From contig PVWP01000003.1 in assembly GCA_003003925.1 (NCBI GenBank), positions 186,001 to 250,000 of the forward strand: 64,000 bases of DNA, read 5' to 3'. The notes under the pieces were generated by a model. That model saw only the letters and a list, made by a program, of their open reading frames with translations, was not told where the DNA came from and did not search any database. Positions within the stretch are counted from its first letter, which is position 1; each line of letters begins with the position of its first letter. The translations under genes and the position numbers were made by a program. Source of the DNA: Aphanothece cf. minutissima CCALA 015 (GTDB lineage: Bacteria; Cyanobacteriota; Cyanobacteriia; PCC-6307; Cyanobiaceae). This document shows, one piece after another, positions 29,019 to 38,845 of this stretch.

Positions 29019-29627
29019 TCAGAGCAGGTAAAGAATCCCGTAAAGCACCACCCAGATGCCGTCGACGAAATGCCAGTAGAGCTCGGCGGCCTCCAGGCCG
29101 AAGGGGGTGGTGCTGGTGACGCGGCCGCCGTTGCGGGTCTGCACCCAGACCAGCAGGATGCAGATCACCCCCAGGGTGACGTGCAGGCCGTGGAAGCCCG
29201 TCAGGGCATAGAAGGTGCTGGCGAAGAGGTTGTCGGTGAGGCCGAAGGGAAGGGTGAAGTACTCCACCATCTGGCCGGCCAGAAACGCCGCCCCCAGGGC
29301 TGCGGTGAGCAGCAGCCAGTTCCGGCAGGGCCCCATCCGCCCCAGCAGCAGATTGCGGCCGGAGCGATGGAAGGTGTAGCTGCTCACCAGCAGCAGCATG
29401 GTGTTGATCGATGGCAGCAGCAGTTCCAGCTCGTAGGTGGAGCCCGCCGGCAGGGGATTGACCGCCCGGAAGGTGAGATAGGCGGCGAAGAAGCCGGCGA
29501 AGGTCATGCCGTCGGCCACCAGGAAGGTGGCCAGGCCGAAGAGCCGCAGGTCGGCATGGCCGCCGTGGGCCTCGGCGGCGGCCGCTTCGGCGGCGGTGGC
29601 GCTGCTGCTGGTGGCGAGGCTGGTCAT
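29019..29627 (-). CDS. ctaE: Cytochrome c oxidase subunit III
   Basis: 202 residues, about five transmembrane helices. LRLFGLATFLVADGMTFAGF opens the core; YALTGFHGLHVTLGVICILL and ELYWHFVDGIWVVLYGILYL close it, matching the usual subunit III ending. It stabilises subunit I. It is third in the leftward ctaC-ctaD-ctaE series, 49 bp after ctaD. Confidence 0.95.
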   Translation of the reverse strand: MTSLATSSSATAAEAAAAEAHGGHADLRLFGLATFLVADGMTFAGFFAAYLTFRAVNPLPAGSTYELELLLPSINTMLLLVSSYTFHRSGRNLLLGRMGPCRNWLLLTAALGAAFLAGQMVEYFTLPFGLTDNLFASTFYALTGFHGLHVTLGVICILLVWVQTRNGGRVTSTTPFGLEAAELYWHFVDGIWVVLYGILYLL

Positions 29628-29676: not shown

Positions 29677-31344
29677 TCAGCGGCGGCCAGCGCCCGTCCA
29701 GAGGTCGCGGCCGGTGGCGGCCTCGAGGCTCAGGGTGTCCTCGTCGACGCCGTAACCGTAGGGGTGCTGCACCAGAGGCGCCTCACCGACCCAGTTCTCC
29801 ACCGGCGGCGGTGAAGAGGTGAGCCATTCCGGGGTGAGAGCATTCCAGGGGTTGTCGCCGGCTTCGCGGCCGCGGAAGGCGCTCACGATCACGTTGTAGA
29901 GGAACGGCAGGCTGCTGACCGCCATCAGCAGGGCGCCCACACTGCTGATCTGGTTGAGGGTGGTGAAGCTGGGGTCGTACTCCGCCACCCGCCGCGGCAT
30001 GCCGTTGAGGCCCAGCCAGTGCTGGGGGGCGAAACAGAGGTTGAAGCCCACGAAGGTGAGCAGGAAATGCAGCCGGCCCAGATCCTCATCCAGCATCCTG
30101 CCGGTGAACTTCGGATACCAGTGGTAGACCGAGGCGAAGATCACGAACACCGTGCCGCCGTAGACGATGTAGTGGAAGTGGCCCACGACGAAATAGGTGT
30201 CGTGGACGTGGATGTCGAAGGGAACCTGGGCCAGGGCGACACCGGTGATGCCGCCGAAGACGAAATTGACGATGAAGGCGCAGGAAAACAGCATGGCGCT
30301 GTTGAGGGCCAGCTTGCCGCCCCAGAGGGTGGCCAGCCAGTTGAAGAATTTGATGCCGGTGGGAACGGCGATGAAGGAGGTGGCGATCGTGAAGAACAGG
30401 CGCATCCAGGGGGGGGTGCCGCTGGTGAACATGTGGTGGGCCCAGACCACCAGGCCCAGCACCACGATCGCCAGGATCGAATACACCATGGTGGTGTAGC
30501 CGAAGAGGGGCTTGCGGGAGTGGATCGGCAGGATCTCACTCACCAGGCCGAAGGCCGGCAGCACCATGATGTACACGGCCGGGTGGGAATAGAACCAGAA
30601 GAGGTGCTGGTAGACCACCACGTTCCCGCCCATGGCGGGGTTGAAGAAGCCCGTGTGGGCGACGATGTCGAAGCTCAGCAGCAGCAGGGTGCCGGCCAGG
30701 ACGGGGGTGGAGAGCACCACCAGGATGCTGGTGCCGAGCATCGCCCAGCAGTACATGGGCAGCTGCATCAGCTTCAGGCCGGGGCGGCGCAGCTTCAGCA
30801 CGGTGGCGATGAAGTTGATGCCGCCGAAGATCGAGCTGCCCCCCAGAAGCAGCACACTGACGATCCAGACGACCTGGCCCAGGGCCGGCGTGGTGATGCT
30901 CAGGGGTGGGTAGGCCGTCCAGCCGGACTGGGCCGCCCCGGTGATGAAGTAGCTGCCGATCAGCAGGATCCCCGCCGGCGGAATCATCCAGAAGGCCACG
31001 GCATTGAGCCTGGGGAAGGCCATGTCCCTGGCGCCCACATAAAAGGGAATCAGGTAGTTGCCGAAGGCACCGTTCACCACCGGCACGATCCACAGGAAGA
31101 TCATCACCGTGCCGTGGAGGGTGAGCACTTCGTTGTAGGTTTCGCGGCTGACGAAATCCGAGATCGGGCTGGCCAGCTCGGCGCGGATCACGCCGGCCAG
31201 GGCGCCGCCGATGAAATAGAAGAGGAAGCCGGTCACCAGGTACTGCAGCCCGATCACCTTATGATCCAGGCTGAAACTGAAGTAGCGCAGCCAGCCCTGG
31301 GGCTGGAGGCTCTCCTGGAAGTCGTTGGGGGAGGCGACGGTCAT
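29677..31344 (-). CDS. ctaD: Cytochrome c oxidase subunit I (aa3 type)
   Basis: 555 residues, 12 transmembrane helices. Binds haem a, haem a3 and CuB; reduces O2 to water and pumps protons. Visible motifs are WFYSHPAVYIMVLPAFG (CuB His plus the Tyr-Ser variant that replaces the D-channel glutamate in A2-type oxidases), VWAHHMFTSG (two CuB His) and GHFHYIVYGGTVF (haem ligands). ATG at 31344 gives MTVASPNDFQ. It is the respiratory terminal oxidase shared by plasma and thylakoid membranes. Confidence 0.97.
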   Translation of the reverse strand: MTVASPNDFQESLQPQGWLRYFSFSLDHKVIGLQYLVTGFLFYFIGGALAGVIRAELASPISDFVSRETYNEVLTLHGTVMIFLWIVPVVNGAFGNYLIPFYVGARDMAFPRLNAVAFWMIPPAGILLIGSYFITGAAQSGWTAYPPLSITTPALGQVVWIVSVLLLGGSSIFGGINFIATVLKLRRPGLKLMQLPMYCWAMLGTSILVVLSTPVLAGTLLLLSFDIVAHTGFFNPAMGGNVVVYQHLFWFYSHPAVYIMVLPAFGLVSEILPIHSRKPLFGYTTMVYSILAIVVLGLVVWAHHMFTSGTPPWMRLFFTIATSFIAVPTGIKFFNWLATLWGGKLALNSAMLFSCAFIVNFVFGGITGVALAQVPFDIHVHDTYFVVGHFHYIVYGGTVFVIFASVYHWYPKFTGRMLDEDLGRLHFLLTFVGFNLCFAPQHWLGLNGMPRRVAEYDPSFTTLNQISSVGALLMAVSSLPFLYNVIVSAFRGREAGDNPWNALTPEWLTSSPPPVENWVGEAPLVQHPYGYGVDEDTLSLEAATGRDLWTGAGRR

Positions 31345-31386: not shown

Positions 31387-32280
31387 TCAGGCGGTGGGGT
31401 GGCCCGCGGCGCTGGCCACCGTGGCGGCGACGGGACTGTTCTTCTGCAGCCAGGCGTCGTAGGCATCCGGCTCGTGCACCACCACGGTGGAGCGCATGCC
31501 GCCGTGGTAAGGCCCGCAGAGCTCGGCGCAGATGATCGGGTAGCTGCCCGCCTTGGTGGGGGTGAAGGTGAGCACGGTGGGCTGGCCAGGGATCACGTCC
31601 TGCTTGAGCCGGAACTGGGGCACCCAGAAGGCGTGGATCACGTCGTTGGCCTTCATGCGCAGCTCCACCGGCCGGCCGTTGGGCACATGCAGCTCACCGC
31701 TGATGATGTCGCCTTCCGGGTAATGGAAGATGAAGGCGAACTGCATCGCCGTCACCTCCACCGGCAGGACATTGGTTTCCCCGGCCGCCGTGCCGATGCC
31801 GCCCCAGACCCGGGGGGCCTTCAGGGGATCCGTGGCAGCGAGGGAGGGGTCCGCCGCGGTGACGGACGCCTCCATCGTTTCCATCGCCGGCATCCGGTGC
31901 ATGGCGGAGTGGTCGTTGAGGCTGCTCATGCCCCCCATGCGCTCGTAGATGTCGTAGCTGTAGATGCCGACGAACAGCACCACGACCGCGGGGATCGCCG
32001 TCCAGACGATCTCAAGCAGGAGATTTCCCTCGATCGCCAGGCCGTCGGTGTGGTCGCCGCTGCGGCGGCGGAAGCGCACCAGGCTGAACACCACGAGGCC
32101 GACGATGCCCAGGAACAGGATCGTGCCGATGCTGAACAGCACCCGGAACAGGGAGTCGTAGACAGGCGCGTTGGCGCTGGCGTCCAGAGGCAGAAGGTTG
32201 ACGTTGGTCCCCACCCACAGGCCGGTGAGCACGAGTGCCATGCCCACCAGCAGGGTGACCAGGGAAGAGGGAATGGGCAC
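31387..32280 (-). CDS. ctaC: Cytochrome c oxidase subunit II
   Basis: 297 residues. Two N-terminal membrane helices (LVTLLVGMALVLTGLWVG; FSIGTILFLGIVGLVVFSL), then a periplasmic/lumenal cupredoxin domain. CuA ligands Cys251, Glu253, Cys255, His259 and Met262 are all present in CAELCGPYHGGM; the remaining His is in VIHAFWVPQF. It accepts electrons from cytochrome c6 or plastocyanin. First gene of the leftward oxidase operon; its upstream gap contains copy 1 of the duplicated regulatory cassette. Confidence 0.96.
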   Translation of the reverse strand: MPIPSSLVTLLVGMALVLTGLWVGTNVNLLPLDASANAPVYDSLFRVLFSIGTILFLGIVGLVVFSLVRFRRRSGDHTDGLAIEGNLLLEIVWTAIPAVVVLFVGIYSYDIYERMGGMSSLNDHSAMHRMPAMETMEASVTAADPSLAATDPLKAPRVWGGIGTAAGETNVLPVEVTAMQFAFIFHYPEGDIISGELHVPNGRPVELRMKANDVIHAFWVPQFRLKQDVIPGQPTVLTFTPTKAGSYPIICAELCGPYHGGMRSTVVVHEPDAYDAWLQKNSPVAATVASAAGHPTA

Positions 32281-32614
32281 AGCGACGGCGGGGGACGGCG
32301 TTTCGGGAGGGTGGAAGCCCTGGGGCCAGCACTCCTAGGGCCAACAGCTTATGGACGGCCGTTCGCGCGCCGCGCGTTCGTTGTAACCAGAGAAGCAATT
32401 TCGTAGAAATTTCACATTCACAGCGGACGATGTGCTGATTCGCACATCTTTCAACGCCGCCAACTTCCCTGGCTTTCAAGCCGCCCGCCCGGGCCCGGGC
32501 CGGCGGCCACTGCGACCATGGAGCGCACCCACGCCCGGCTGCGGTGCGAGCGGCCGCCGGAAGGCCGACATTCCGGGGGCCCCACGCCCCTGGCCGTCCT
32601 TGAGCGGAGCTGCG
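32281..32614. promoter_or_regulatory. Divergent intergenic region between ctaC and the channel-like gene
   Basis: 334 bp without a supported gene. It holds cassette copy 1 (32358-32454). The rest is GC-rich: left of the cassette is the ctaC leader, and right of it (32455-32614) is a 160-bp leader for the channel-like gene with a GC-rich stretch at about 32480-32510. No small gene or riboswitch was recognised. Confidence 0.7.
32358..32454 (+). repeat. Duplicated regulatory cassette, copy 1
   Basis: Its core 32376-32454 (79 bp) matches 33501-33579 with only four mismatches; similarity fades out about 20 bp further upstream and some bases downstream. It contains two dyads. AATTTC-GTA-GAAATT (32397-32411) is a perfect palindrome with a 3-bp centre. 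GATGTGC-TGATTC-GCACATC (32429-32448) has perfect 7-bp arms. The latter is close to the CRP-family consensus TGTGA-N6-TCACA. It lies between ctaC and the channel-like gene, so it can serve either direction. Confidence 0.85.
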
Positions 32615-33388
32615 ATGCCCTTCACCCACGAGCAGATCCAGAGGCTCCGCCACCGCCATCGCGGCTACATCCTCACCCTCGCCAGCGAGGTGCTGCTGAT
32701 CCTGCTGCTGCCGTTCTGCCAGTCGCACGCCTGGCTGCTCTCGCTGCTGCTGATCGGCCTGGCGGTGGTGCTCATCACCACGGTGACGCGCTACTCGCCC
32801 CTGATCAGCACCCGGCCACTGCTGTACGGGCTCGGGGGCCTGGCGCTCGCCCTGGAGGGGGTGTGGCATCTGGCCCTGGCCTTCGATCCACCGCTGGGGC
32901 GCCTGGTCACGGTGCCCCATGTGATCGCCTGGCTCCTGTTCTTCCTGGTGGCTCTGGTCCGCAAGGTGAAGACCCTGGTCCGTGAGCCCTTCGTGACGCT
33001 GGCCGTGGTGATGGGGGCCACCTCCGGCTATCTGCTGGTGGGCATCGCCGGCGGCGTGATGCTGGTGGCCCTGTGGGTGCTGCACCCGGGCGCCTACGAC
33101 CTCTCCGCCCTGCCGGTGCTTCAGGACCCCAACGCTGACGCCGTGGCGATGGCGCCGGCGCTGATGGCCGCGTCCTTCATGATCCTGACCTCCGTGGGAT
33201 CGGCGGTGCTCCGCAGCAGCGACGTGACCGGGCAGGTGATCACCGTGGTGATCACCATCTCGGGGCAGCTGTACATCGCCATCCTCATTGCCCTGATCCT
33301 GGGCCGCTTCCATCGCAGGCCCGGCAACGGACGGGCCTGGCCGCCGTCCCGGTCCCATCGGGAGGGCCATCCGCCTTCTAGCCGCTGA
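32615..33388 (+). CDS. Ion-channel-like membrane protein with degenerate selectivity filter
   Basis: 257 residues, about six transmembrane helices: VLLILLLPFCQSHAWLLSLL, LLIGLAVVLITTVT, LLYGLGGLALALEGV, VIAWLLFFLVALV and others. The last third resembles the pore module of two-helix potassium channels: FMILTSVGSAVLRSSDVTGQ then ISGQLYIAILIALILG, the usual GQLYLAILIARLVG ending of cyanobacterial channels. However, the filter reads TSVGSA (residues 192-197) instead of T-x-GYG. It sits inside the cytochrome oxidase locus between two copies of a regulatory cassette. Function unknown; K+ selectivity should be lost. Confidence 0.7.
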   Translation: MPFTHEQIQRLRHRHRGYILTLASEVLLILLLPFCQSHAWLLSLLLIGLAVVLITTVTRYSPLISTRPLLYGLGGLALALEGVWHLALAFDPPLGRLVTVPHVIAWLLFFLVALVRKVKTLVREPFVTLAVVMGATSGYLLVGIAGGVMLVALWVLHPGAYDLSALPVLQDPNADAVAMAPALMAASFMILTSVGSAVLRSSDVTGQVITVVITISGQLYIAILIALILGRFHRRPGNGRAWPPSRSHREGHPPSSR

Positions 33389-33440
33389 GCCGGGATCGGT
33401 GGAGGCCCCTCCTCCCCGTGCGTCGGGACGGATCCGGTGT

Positions 33441-33481
33441 CTGCCCCCTGCCGTAGCGGTCATCACCATGGCAGGGGGCAG
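33441..33481. terminator. Strong hairpin between channel-like gene and ctaA
   Basis: CTGCCCCCTGCC (33441-33452) and GGCAGGGGGCAG (33470-33481) form a perfect 12-bp stem with a 17-nt loop, 52 bp after the channel-like gene stop. No T run follows. It could end that transcript or insulate the cassette upstream of ctaA. Confidence 0.5.
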
Positions 33482-33483
33482 GC

Positions 33484-33579
33484 CCGTTCGGGCGCCGTGG
33501 GTTCGTTGTAGCCAGAGAAGCAATTTCGGAGAAATTTCACATTCACTTCGGACGATGTGCTGATTCGCACATCTTTCAA
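33484..33579 (+). repeat. Duplicated regulatory cassette, copy 2
   Basis: Second copy of the cassette, same orientation, ending 37 bp before the ctaA start. AATTTC-GGA-GAAATT lies at 33522-33536 and GATGTGC-TGATTC-GCACATC at 33554-33573. Both dyads are conserved exactly in their arms while bases outside change, which is expected if a protein binds them. Probably the ctaA-ctaB operon control region. Confidence 0.85.
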
Positions 33580-33616
33580 GTCCCGCTAACTTGGGCAACC
33601 GGAAGAGCATTCATTC

Positions 33617-34582
33617 ATGGCCGTGGCGCCGTCCGCGCAACCCCTGCCCCCGCTCCGGTCCGCCGCCGGGGAGAGCTGGCCCGTGCGCCTGGTGCCCGTG
33701 CTCACCGCCCACCTCGTCGTCGCCCTGGTGGCCCTGGTGGCCATCGGCGGCGCCACCCGTGTGATGCAGGCCGGTCTGGCCTGTCCGGACTGGCCCCTCT
33801 GCTACGGCGTGCTCTGGCCGGGCCGCCAGTGGAACCTGCAGGTGTTTCTGGAGTGGTTCCACCGCCTCGACGCCTTCCTGGTGGGCGTGGCCCTGCTGCT
33901 CCTGTTCGCCCTCAGCCTGCGGTTCCGCTCGCGCTTCCCGCTCTGGCTGCCCTGGAGCGCCGGTCTGGCGCTCGGCCTGGTGGCCGTCCAGGGCGGCCTC
34001 GGGGCCCTCACCGTGCTCAGCCAGCTGGCCGCCCCCACCGTCACCCTGCATCTGGCCACGGCCCTCAGCCTGGTGTTGCTGCTGAGCGCCATGCACCAGG
34101 GGCTGGAGCGCCCTGCCGCCGCCTCGGCCGCTCCGGCGGCCGGCGAGCTGCCGCCCTGGTGGTTCCCCCTCCCCGTGCTGGCCGCCCTGCTGGTGGGCGG
34201 CCAGTGCCTGCTGGGCGCGGCCATGGCCAGCCGCTGGGCCGCCCCGCTCTGCCTGCAGGCCGGGGAGGGCTGCCGCTGGCTGCTGCTGCACCGGCAGGGG
34301 GCCTATCCGGCGGCGGTGGCAGTGCTCCTGCTGGCCGCCGCCTCCCTGGCCCTGCCTGCCGGCCTCGGCCGGGCCAGGGGACTGGCTTTCGCCGCCGCCG
34401 GTTTGGTGGTGGTCCAGGTGGTCCTCGGGGTGCTCACCCTGCGTCTCCAGCTCGCCGTCCCTGCCATCACGATCGCCCACCAGCTCACCGCCGCCCTGCT
34501 GGTGGGGGTGCTGGGTGGGCTCTGGGGACTCGCGTTCCCTTCCCCTTCCGTTTCTGTCCGTCCCGAGGTGGCCCATGGTTAG
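33617..34582 (+). CDS. ctaA: Haem A synthase (COX15/CtaA)
   Basis: 321 residues, eight membrane helices in two similar halves. [21 protein letters not shown] is near the N-terminus, and four conserved haem-binding histidines appear in [27 protein letters not shown] and TIAHQLTAA. It hydroxylates the C8 methyl of haem O to form haem A for subunit I. ATG at 33617 follows cassette copy 2. Overlaps ctaB by 8 bp. Confidence 0.94.
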
Positions 34583-35570
34583 TGTCAGCGCCGTGGCGTC
34601 CATCGCCGCTCCCTCCGCGCCGGCGGCGATCCGGCCCTCGGTGAAGCTCCCGGCCTGGCTGGAGGTGGCCAAGCCCCGGCTGATTCCCCTGCTGCTCGCC
34701 ACCACGGTGGGCGGCATGGCCCTCACCGCCGCCTGGCCGCTCGACCCGGTGCGCCTGCTCTGCACCCTGGTGGGCGGTTCGATGGCCTCGGCCGCCGCCG
34801 GGGTCCTCAACTGCCTCTGGGAGCAGGAACTCGACGGCCGCATGCAGCGCACCAGCCGCCGTGCCCTGCCCTCGGGCCGCCTGGCCCAGCGCCAGGCCTT
34901 CGGCCTCGCGGTGGCCCTCACCGTTGGCTCGGTGCTGGTGCTCGTCCTGGGGGTCAACGCCCTGGCCGCCTCCCTGGCCCTGCTGGGGCTGTGCAGCTAC
35001 GTGCTGCTCTACACGGCCCTGCTCAAGCCCCGCACCACCCAGAACATCGTCATCGGCGGCATGGCCGGGGCGATCCCGCCCCTGGTGGGCGCGGCGGCCG
35101 CCACCGGCCACCTGGGCTGGAGCAGCTGGTGGCTGTTCAGCCTGGTGATGGTCTGGACCCCGGCCCATTTCTGGGCCCTGGCCCTGCTGCTGCACGAGGA
35201 CTACCGCTCCGTGGGCATTCCGATGCTGCCGGTGGTGAAGGGGCTGACGGTCACGGCCCGGGCCATCGGCCGCTACAGCTGGGCCACGGTGGCCCTGAGC
35301 CTGGCCGGGGTGGTCGCCCTCCCCAGCGGCGGCTGGCTCTACGGCCTGCTGGTGCTCCCCTTCAACGCCCGGCTCCTGCAGCTAAGCACCAGCCTGTCGG
35401 AGGACCCCGGCGATCCCCGCCGGGCCCGCAGCCTGTTCCGCTGGTCGATCTTCTACCTGTTCGGCATCTGTCTGCTGCTGGTGCTGGCGCGCACGCCCCT
35501 CGCCAGTGCCGTCCACCCGGCCGCCCTGCTGGCCGCCGCCCTCCATCTGGCACCGGCTGCGGCTGCCTAG
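34575..35570 (+). CDS. ctaB: Protohaem IX farnesyltransferase (haem O synthase)
   Basis: 331 residues of the UbiA superfamily with about nine membrane helices. The first prenyl-diphosphate site is [20 protein letters not shown]; the second region is [36 protein letters not shown] is the typical N-terminal helix. It makes haem O from haem B and farnesyl diphosphate, supplying CtaA. An upstream ATG at 34515 lies deep in ctaA; 34575 gives the normal length. Confidence 0.95.
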
Positions 35571-38140: not shown

Positions 38141-38845
38141 ATGGCGTCTTCCCGTCCCCTGCCTGAACGGGCCGCCCTCGGCGGTCGACTGATCGTCTCG
38201 GTGCAGGCACCGGAGGGTTCCCCGATGCGCGATCCGGCCGTGATCGCGGCGATGGCGGAGGCCAGCCTGCTCCAGGGGGCCGCCGGCGTGCGGCTGGAAA
38301 GCCCCGAGCACATCGGCGCGGTGCGGCGCCGCTGCCCCGACGCCCTGATCGTCGGTCTCTGGAAGCGCACGTTTCCCGGCAGCCCGGTGTACATCACCCC
38401 CGGCTGGGAGGAGATCCGTGCCGTCTGGGCGGCGGGAGCCGATGTGGTGGCCATCGATGCCACCGAGCGCCCCAGGCCCGACGGCCAGGAGCTGGAGGCG
38501 CTGATCGTGCGTGCCAGCCAGGAGCTGGGGGCCCCGCTGATGGCGGATGTGGACAGCGTGGCGAACGGGCTGCGGGCGGCGACCCTGGGCTGCCAGTGGG
38601 TGGGTACCACCCTCTACGGCTACACCGAAGCCACCGCCGCGCAGCCGCCACCGGCCTGGGACCTGCTGGGCCCCCTGCGCCGCGAGCTGCCCGAAGCGGT
38701 GGCCCTGGTCTGCGAGGGGGGCATCGCCTCGAAGCAGGAGGCGACCCGCGCCCTCGCCTGTGGGGCCGATGCCGTGGTGGTGGGGACGGCGATCACGGGT
38801 GTGGACCTGCAGGTGGCCGCCTACGTAAAGGCCATGGCCGGCTGA
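38141..38845 (+). CDS. nanE: N-acetylmannosamine-6-phosphate 2-epimerase
   Basis: 234 residues, TIM barrel. LIVSVQAPEGSPMRDP opens the barrel, and VGLWKR holds the region of the catalytic lysine. GADVVAIDATERPRP, LMADVDSVANGLRAA and GGIASKQEATRALACGADAVVVGTAI are typical NanE stretches. It interconverts ManNAc-6-P and GlcNAc-6-P. No other sialic-acid genes are nearby, so it may serve cell-wall or surface polysaccharide recycling. Convergent with groEL. Confidence 0.88.
   Translation: MASSRPLPERAALGGRLIVSVQAPEGSPMRDPAVIAAMAEASLLQGAAGVRLESPEHIGAVRRRCPDALIVGLWKRTFPGSPVYITPGWEEIRAVWAAGADVVAIDATERPRPDGQELEALIVRASQELGAPLMADVDSVANGLRAATLGCQWVGTTLYGYTEATAAQPPPAWDLLGPLRRELPEAVALVCEGGIASKQEATRALACGADAVVVGTAITGVDLQVAAYVKAMAG

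Follow-up and report, generated by a model that had tools for sequence, protein, structure and literature searches.

Probable duplication of the divergent ctaC/ctaA promoter region around an inserted gene in Aphanothece cf. minutissima and related genomes

Divergent cta regions and the repeat of the window

The products of the cyanobacterial operons ctaCDE (oxidase subunits) and ctaAB (haem a synthesis) must be made together, and the closest known arrangement sets these two operons back to back with a control region between them. Among 29 ctaC loci taken from across the class, ctaC and ctaA are divergent in 15, with no ctaA within reach in the other 14. Beyond cta loci, two further systems offer a comparison. 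The first is the CRP/FNR-type operator, TGTGA-N6-TCACA, a two-fold symmetric site. The second is the duplication-degeneration-complementation model, under which duplicates retain different halves of an ancestral two-part function. The locus described here has the same two operons as the common divergent arrangement; it differs in that the region between them is duplicated around a gene, with each copy short of one promoter-like half, and in the presence of two dyad patterns, neither of which is found in the 15 distant divergent ctaC/ctaA intergenic regions. A literature search of open-licence papers found no duplicated cta promoter.

The window, i.e., the whole stretch of 64,000 nucleotides from Aphanothece cf. 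minutissima CCALA 015 that was analysed, carries the only ctaC locus of this genome (one match), and its features are collected in Table 1. The space between the two operons holds an additional open frame flanked by a direct repeat, the two copies of which are identical at 89 of 96 bases overall and at 75 of the 79 bases of a core that begins at position 32376 of copy 1; from start to start they are 1125 bases apart. Thus, the duplicated palindromic element that the earlier note had reported from the letters alone is real, and its two dyads show no mismatch in either copy. A genome-wide search (3.2 Mb, 17 contigs) returned no third copy and otherwise only two 14-base matches. The earlier note makes no mention of the open frame between the copies. 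It had also placed all four core changes outside the dyads; they do lie outside the dyad arms, but one of them falls in the N3 of dyad 1, and since chance would keep four changes off the 26 arm bases with a probability of 0.19, the argument from the two copies is a weak one.

Dyad 1 is above chance in the window (two matches at up to two mismatches against 0.05 expected) and has no other match in the CCALA 015 genome at up to one mismatch. Dyad 2 is not above chance in the window at up to three mismatches (two matches, both exact, against 4.5 expected); searched as an 18-mer at up to one mismatch across the 3.2 Mb genome, it returned the two copies and one place with a single mismatch. In copy 2, dyad 2 ends 13 bases before the candidate -10 box of ctaA. 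The ctaB frame was translated from 34563 for its match to the UbiA family.

Table 1. Features of the cta locus, in window coordinates
Feature	Position	Strand	Basis or distribution
ctaE, oxidase subunit III	29019..29627	-	COX3
ctaD, oxidase subunit I	29677..31344	-	COX1
ctaC, oxidase subunit II	31387..32280	-	COX2_TM, COX2
Candidate ctaC -10, TAAGCT, inside AGCTTATGG (32346-32354)	32346..32351	-	Copy 1 and single copies; lost in copy 2
Copy 1	32359..32454		Flanked by ctaC (minus) and by the inserted open frame (plus); 93% repeat, aligned with 11 other copies 1
Dyad 1 of copy 1, AATTTC-N3-GAAATT	32397..32411		Exact in 7/12 copies 1
TTTCACATT, copy 1, overlapping dyad 1	32410..32418	+	Found in 29/29 copies
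Dyad 2 of copy 1, GATGTGC-N6-GCACATC	32429..32448		Exact in 10/12 copies 1
Probable inserted gene between the copies, 257-residue protein	32615..33388	+	Open frame; absent from the cta locus of one-copy genomes
Copy 2	33484..33579		Directly before ctaA; repeat match and alignment of copies
Dyad 1 of copy 2, AATTTC-N3-GAAATT	33522..33536		Exact in 10/12 copies 2
TTTCACATT, copy 2	33535..33543	+	Found in 29/29 copies
Dyad 2 of copy 2, GATGTGC-N6-GCACATC	33554..33573		Exact in 12/12 copies 2
Candidate ctaA -10, TAACTT, inside CGCTAACTTG (33584-33593)	33587..33592	+	Copy 2 and single copies; lost in copy 1
ctaA, haem a synthase family	33617..34582	+	COX15-CtaA
ctaB, haem o synthase candidate, UbiA family	34575..35570	+	UbiA; ATG start picked by eye

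One-copy and two-copy loci and the loss of opposite motifs

We searched 60 genomes for the element, and 27 of them, CCALA 015 included, gave matches at E<=1. The 14 genomes with matches of at least 71 bases were kept, and the 13 with matches of 15-32 bases were left out. Three further genomes (L037, L041 and L043) were obtained from a wider collection comprising the best 80 of at least 487 confirmed loci, which brought the total to 17, a genome present in both collections being counted once. As an outgroup we used 68 loci of the same collection (L047-L114); motif counts were made on 64 outgroup intergenic regions, four of the 68 loci being left out for lack of a ctaC match. One outgroup locus, L114, is titled as a Bifidobacterium breve MAG and carries a picocyanobacterial cta locus; its label or bin is probably wrong.

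In 12 of the 17 genomes, which belong to a group of Cyanobium-type cyanobacteria and include CCALA 015 and, for example, Cyanobium sp. N.Huapi 1H5, two copies flank the inserted gene or its remnant. The other five have a single copy and no inserted gene at the locus, with ctaC and ctaA back to back, and in all five of these insert-free relatives the element lies between the two divergent genes. Its distance from the matched ctaC start is 64 or 65 bases in four of them and 106 in G014 (L046), and from ctaA 37 to 41 bases. The element is thus kept upstream of cta genes in all 17 genomes, so that the proposal of the earlier note does not fall through lack of conservation in sister genomes. A regulatory-looking element does stand before both ctaCDE and ctaAB as that note had it, but not as a cassette placed at two promoters: on comparison of these sequences, the repeat is the ctaC/ctaA intergenic region itself, a single divergent region that was duplicated, rather than a cassette recruited twice.

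The core is flanked by two -10-like motifs, one toward each cta gene, and both are conserved in the single copies. The ctaC-side motif, AGCTTATGG, is present in 12/12 copies 1, 5/5 single copies and 0/12 copies 2, and the ctaA-side motif, CGCTAACTTG, in 0/12 copies 1, 5/5 single copies and 12/12 copies 2. The mean identity to the single-copy majority is 1.00 in copy 1 versus 0.33 in copy 2 for AGCTTATGG and 0.60 versus 1.00 for CGCTAACTTG; in the dyads both copies reach 0.94 to 1.00. Each copy thus retains what the other has lost, and the single copies retain both. As the two-copy genomes descend from one event, 12/12 does not stand for 12 independent losses; the weight rests on the retained halves having stayed whole in each of the 12 lineages in which the opposite halves disappeared.

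The motifs themselves are old. A motif similar to that on the ctaC side occurs in 55 of the 64 outgroup intergenics (from the best 80 of at least 487 loci) against 10.5 in base shuffles, and the ctaA-side pattern GCTA[ACG][CG]TT in 41 of the same 64 against 1.5, counts to be read with the patterns having been picked after reading the sequences and the shuffles preserving base content only. We infer TAAGCT (on the minus strand) and TAACTT to be the -10 boxes of ctaC and ctaA, respectively.

We consider the following account probable. A gene would have been inserted between the back-to-back ctaC and ctaA, leaving the intergenic stretch duplicated on either side of it; each copy would then have lost the promoter-like motif facing away from its cta gene and become one-way, and a single regulator, by prediction an activator, would bind the common core of both copies. 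With the whole core on each side, ctaCDE and ctaAB would stay under common control despite their separation by 1.1 kb, and one regulator acting on both copies would keep the subunits and haem a synthesis in step. As in the duplication-degeneration-complementation model, the copies retain different halves; here, the unit is a bacterial divergent promoter region and not a gene, and the occasion would be an insertion between two genes. The locus shows how, in a bacterium, a divergent promoter can tolerate the arrival of a gene, with both operons likely remaining under the same site. It also amounts to a natural promoter dissection, in which the 12 two-copy and five one-copy genomes suggest which bases are needed by ctaC, by ctaA and by both.

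The common core and its candidate regulators

Among the 12 two-copy genomes the mean pairwise identity of the core is 0.88 for copies 1 and 0.91 for copies 2, against 0.78 for the third codon positions of five cta genes in the same genomes. In all 29 copies together, variable cells number 15 of 754 in the dyad arms and 121 of 1363 elsewhere in the core. Exact dyad 2 is found in 26 of the 29 copies, including four of the five single ones, and exact dyad 1 in 22, including all five (for copies 1 and 2 see Table 1); there is more dyad wear in copy 1 than in copy 2. In G002, which has a diverged insert (76%, see below), dyad 2 of copy 1 is damaged. The dyads retained in copy 1 suggest that ctaC also needs the core, a retention that the greater wear of this copy makes less certain for both dyads. 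Copy 1 could serve the inserted gene as well; in G022 the insert is broken, yet both copies stand, so that the insert cannot be the sole reason for keeping them.

Dyad 2 has counterparts in the outgroup. Sites resembling it occur in 11 of the 64 outgroup intergenics (from the best 80 of at least 487 loci), against a shuffled mean of 0.00, in the form of GATGTGCGGGATCGCTCATC or similar imperfect dyads; eight of them are followed by TANNTT, at a gap of 13 bases in seven and of 21 in one. These counterparts and their identical 13-base gap suggest that dyad 2 and its spacing to ctaA likely predate the duplication. For dyad 1, the 64 outgroup intergenics (again from the best 80 of at least 487 loci) hold no clear counterpart. 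The perfect form of dyad 2 is found, among the best 80 of at least 487 loci, in the present group and on one far contig, L084. There, on a contig labelled Prochlorococcus, GATGTGC-N6-GCACATC lies between ctaC and ctaA inside a longer palindrome, GTGATGTGC...GCACATCAC, at 24 bases from a TACGTT motif: the dyad is the same and the spacing different. The ctaC/ctaA gaps of L078, L086, L090 and L097 contain near-perfect palindromes of another form (e.g., GTGAGGGAACCCTCAC), perhaps diverged versions of the dyad site.

Five candidate hexamers for the ctaC -35 were scored by hand, and the best of them matches TTGACA at two of six positions. The -35 place of ctaA holds a single -35-like hexamer, TTCGCA (33564-33569), which matches at four of six, has a 17-base spacer and lies inside dyad 2; TTCGCA-17-TAACTT is thus a fair weak promoter. 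A scan for sigma-70 promoters with both hexamers near consensus returned none, which says little with only 0.1 expected by chance. Given the poor -35 hexamers of ctaC and the middling one of ctaA, transcription would depend on an activator; this expectation of the scan and the fair weak promoter at ctaA mean that the hexamers argue only weakly for a core-binding activator over a repressor, and a repressor covering the ctaA -35 may be the alternative. In the activator model, dyad 2 would occupy the -35 position of ctaA, and dyad 1 and TTTCACATT would stand about 60-75 bases upstream of both predicted starts; seen from ctaC, copy 1 would present dyad 1 at ~65 and dyad 2 at ~100 bases upstream of the predicted start.

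In the ten genomes searched (10 of the 17), the exact dyad 2 18-mer is found only at the cta locus, with 0 to 3 single-mismatch matches per genome in other places, against 0 to 1 for a reversed control. The duplicated core points to one regulator in common for the operons at the only ctaC locus of the genome, with RpaA and a dedicated, undescribed protein as the candidates. In the latter case a regulator specific here to the cta locus would read the core, its operator having been duplicated rather than cut, with the copies made one-way and the insert behaving as a cassette that leaves without a trace; we offer this fuller version as a tentative possibility.

It is conceivable, but in our judgement doubtful, that the core is instead a target of RpaA (an OmpR-family regulator of clock output), with a site around TTTCACATT and the dyads incidental. 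RpaA is the nearest published control of ctaAB and ctaCDE: a table in a 2026 review names both as RpaA targets in PCC 7942 (PMC13421787), and an eLife paper assigns the oxidase genes of that strain to the Early cluster of dusk genes (PMC5785211). Moreover, among the core motifs counted, TTTCACATT alone occurs in every copy, and several outgroups (from the best 80 of at least 487 loci) have, on inspection by eye, similar letters 18-19 bases ahead of dyad 2. Against this reading, variation in the dyad arms is lower than in the remainder of the core as a whole. The HLR1 pattern of the related RpaB, given as KTTACAWW-N2-KTTACAWW in the same review (PMC13421787), also has no match in the window at up to three mismatches. 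An RpaA motif matrix is used in another study (PMC10805033). In PMC4182526 the name ctaA denotes a copper ATPase, and that paper is hence not relevant here.

The proposal that dyad 2 serves in both copies as the site of a CRP/FNR-family regulator, with the duplication having brought the cta genes into its regulon, is unlikely. Dyad 2 is likewise two-fold symmetric with N6 spacing and TGTG...CACA ends, and the genome encodes five CRP-family proteins over the family cut-off. Its half-site, however, is TGTGC and not TGTGA, so that each copy is two mismatches away from TGTGA-N6-TCACA, and this operator is not enriched in the window (six matches at up to two mismatches, two of them being dyad 2, against 10.5 expected). 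An Arg-Glu pair in the CRP-family recognition helix reads GTGA; by eye, the helices of the five proteins read TRVT in four and ARGT in one, with no Arg-Glu. Furthermore, the outgroup versions of the site are imperfect, and its exact form is confined to one locus in ten genomes, unlike the site of a global regulator. The dyad 2 site likely predates the duplication, which would thus not have recruited anything. The assignment of dyad 2 to the CRP/FNR type in the earlier note is therefore not upheld.

The NtcA promoter pattern is GTA-N8-TAC, and its sole exact match in the window, at 38604, lies outside the element. That the dyads act as RNA hairpins (an attenuator or leader element) and not as DNA sites is very improbable: dyad 2 does fold into a hairpin of 7 bp (z -4.5 over 27 bases), as any perfect dyad of this length would, but neither copy 2 plus its leader (z -1.4) nor the minus strand of copy 1 (z -0.4) clearly exceeds shuffles in stability, the region 31500-35000 has no Rfam match up to E 1, and, given the inferred -10 boxes, the core would lie upstream of both starts.

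Order of events and the inserted gene

A tree was built from five cta genes in 31 rows, of which 14 were drawn from the 68 outgroup loci, using 5142 of 5562 columns. The row of G012 lacks ctaD, ctaE and most of ctaC; the tree program warned of uneven base make-up in ten of the 31 rows and of a single long branch, which belongs to an outgroup. All insert-free, the pair of G014 and G027 and the 14 outgroups fall outside a clade of 15 genomes with 100/100 support. This clade consists of the 12 two-copy and three one-copy genomes, the latter being nested among the former (G009; Synechococcus sp. CCY 0621 with G004). A clade of the twelve two-copy genomes alone was rejected (AU p 4e-8), and so was one uniting the five one-copy genomes. 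Three changes are needed, which would most simply be one duplication together with the insertion, and two excisions. Recombination between the direct repeats would offer a route by which the inserted gene could be removed precisely, and the tree suggests two such losses.

In the nested one-copy genomes, the letters on the ctaC side are mostly like the copy 1 of their neighbours and those on the ctaA side mostly like copy 2, with some exceptions. Such letters fit excision and plain inheritance alike, and it is the tree that carries the claim of excision. The identity of the core within a genome is 0.90 and does not stand out from the means between genomes (0.88 to 0.91), and hence there is no strong sign of gene conversion (concerted evolution). 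We give very little credence to the two-copy state being older than the whole group, with every one-copy genome a product of excision. Three one-copy genomes do look like excision products on the tree, but neither an insert nor a second copy occurs in G014, in G027 or in any of the 68 outgroup loci (from the best 80 of at least 487), and the distant loci either have ctaC and ctaA divergent or, as noted above, no ctaA within reach.

The extra gene between the copies is thus probably an insertion. Its product is hydrophobic by eye and is predicted to be a membrane protein; no Pfam family scored over its cut-off, and a comparison with solved structures gave no match up to E 5. A relative of the gene stands at the same place in the other two-copy genomes. 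It is full-length, with 87.5 to 93.8% identity, in eight of them (including Cruz8D1 at 89%), is matched over residues 1-239 at 93% in G025, and has diverged in G002, where residues 5-254 match at 76%. In G022 the gene is shortened and split into two frames; the other 11 two-copy genomes have an open frame of at least 270 codons. Elsewhere in the genus, relatives of the inserted protein are found at 50-55% identity, and many further ones exist, listed without gene context. In L137, L138 and L140, the relatives (53-55%) adjoin, by eye, a valS-like frame or fragments of valS, which makes this a possible source locus.
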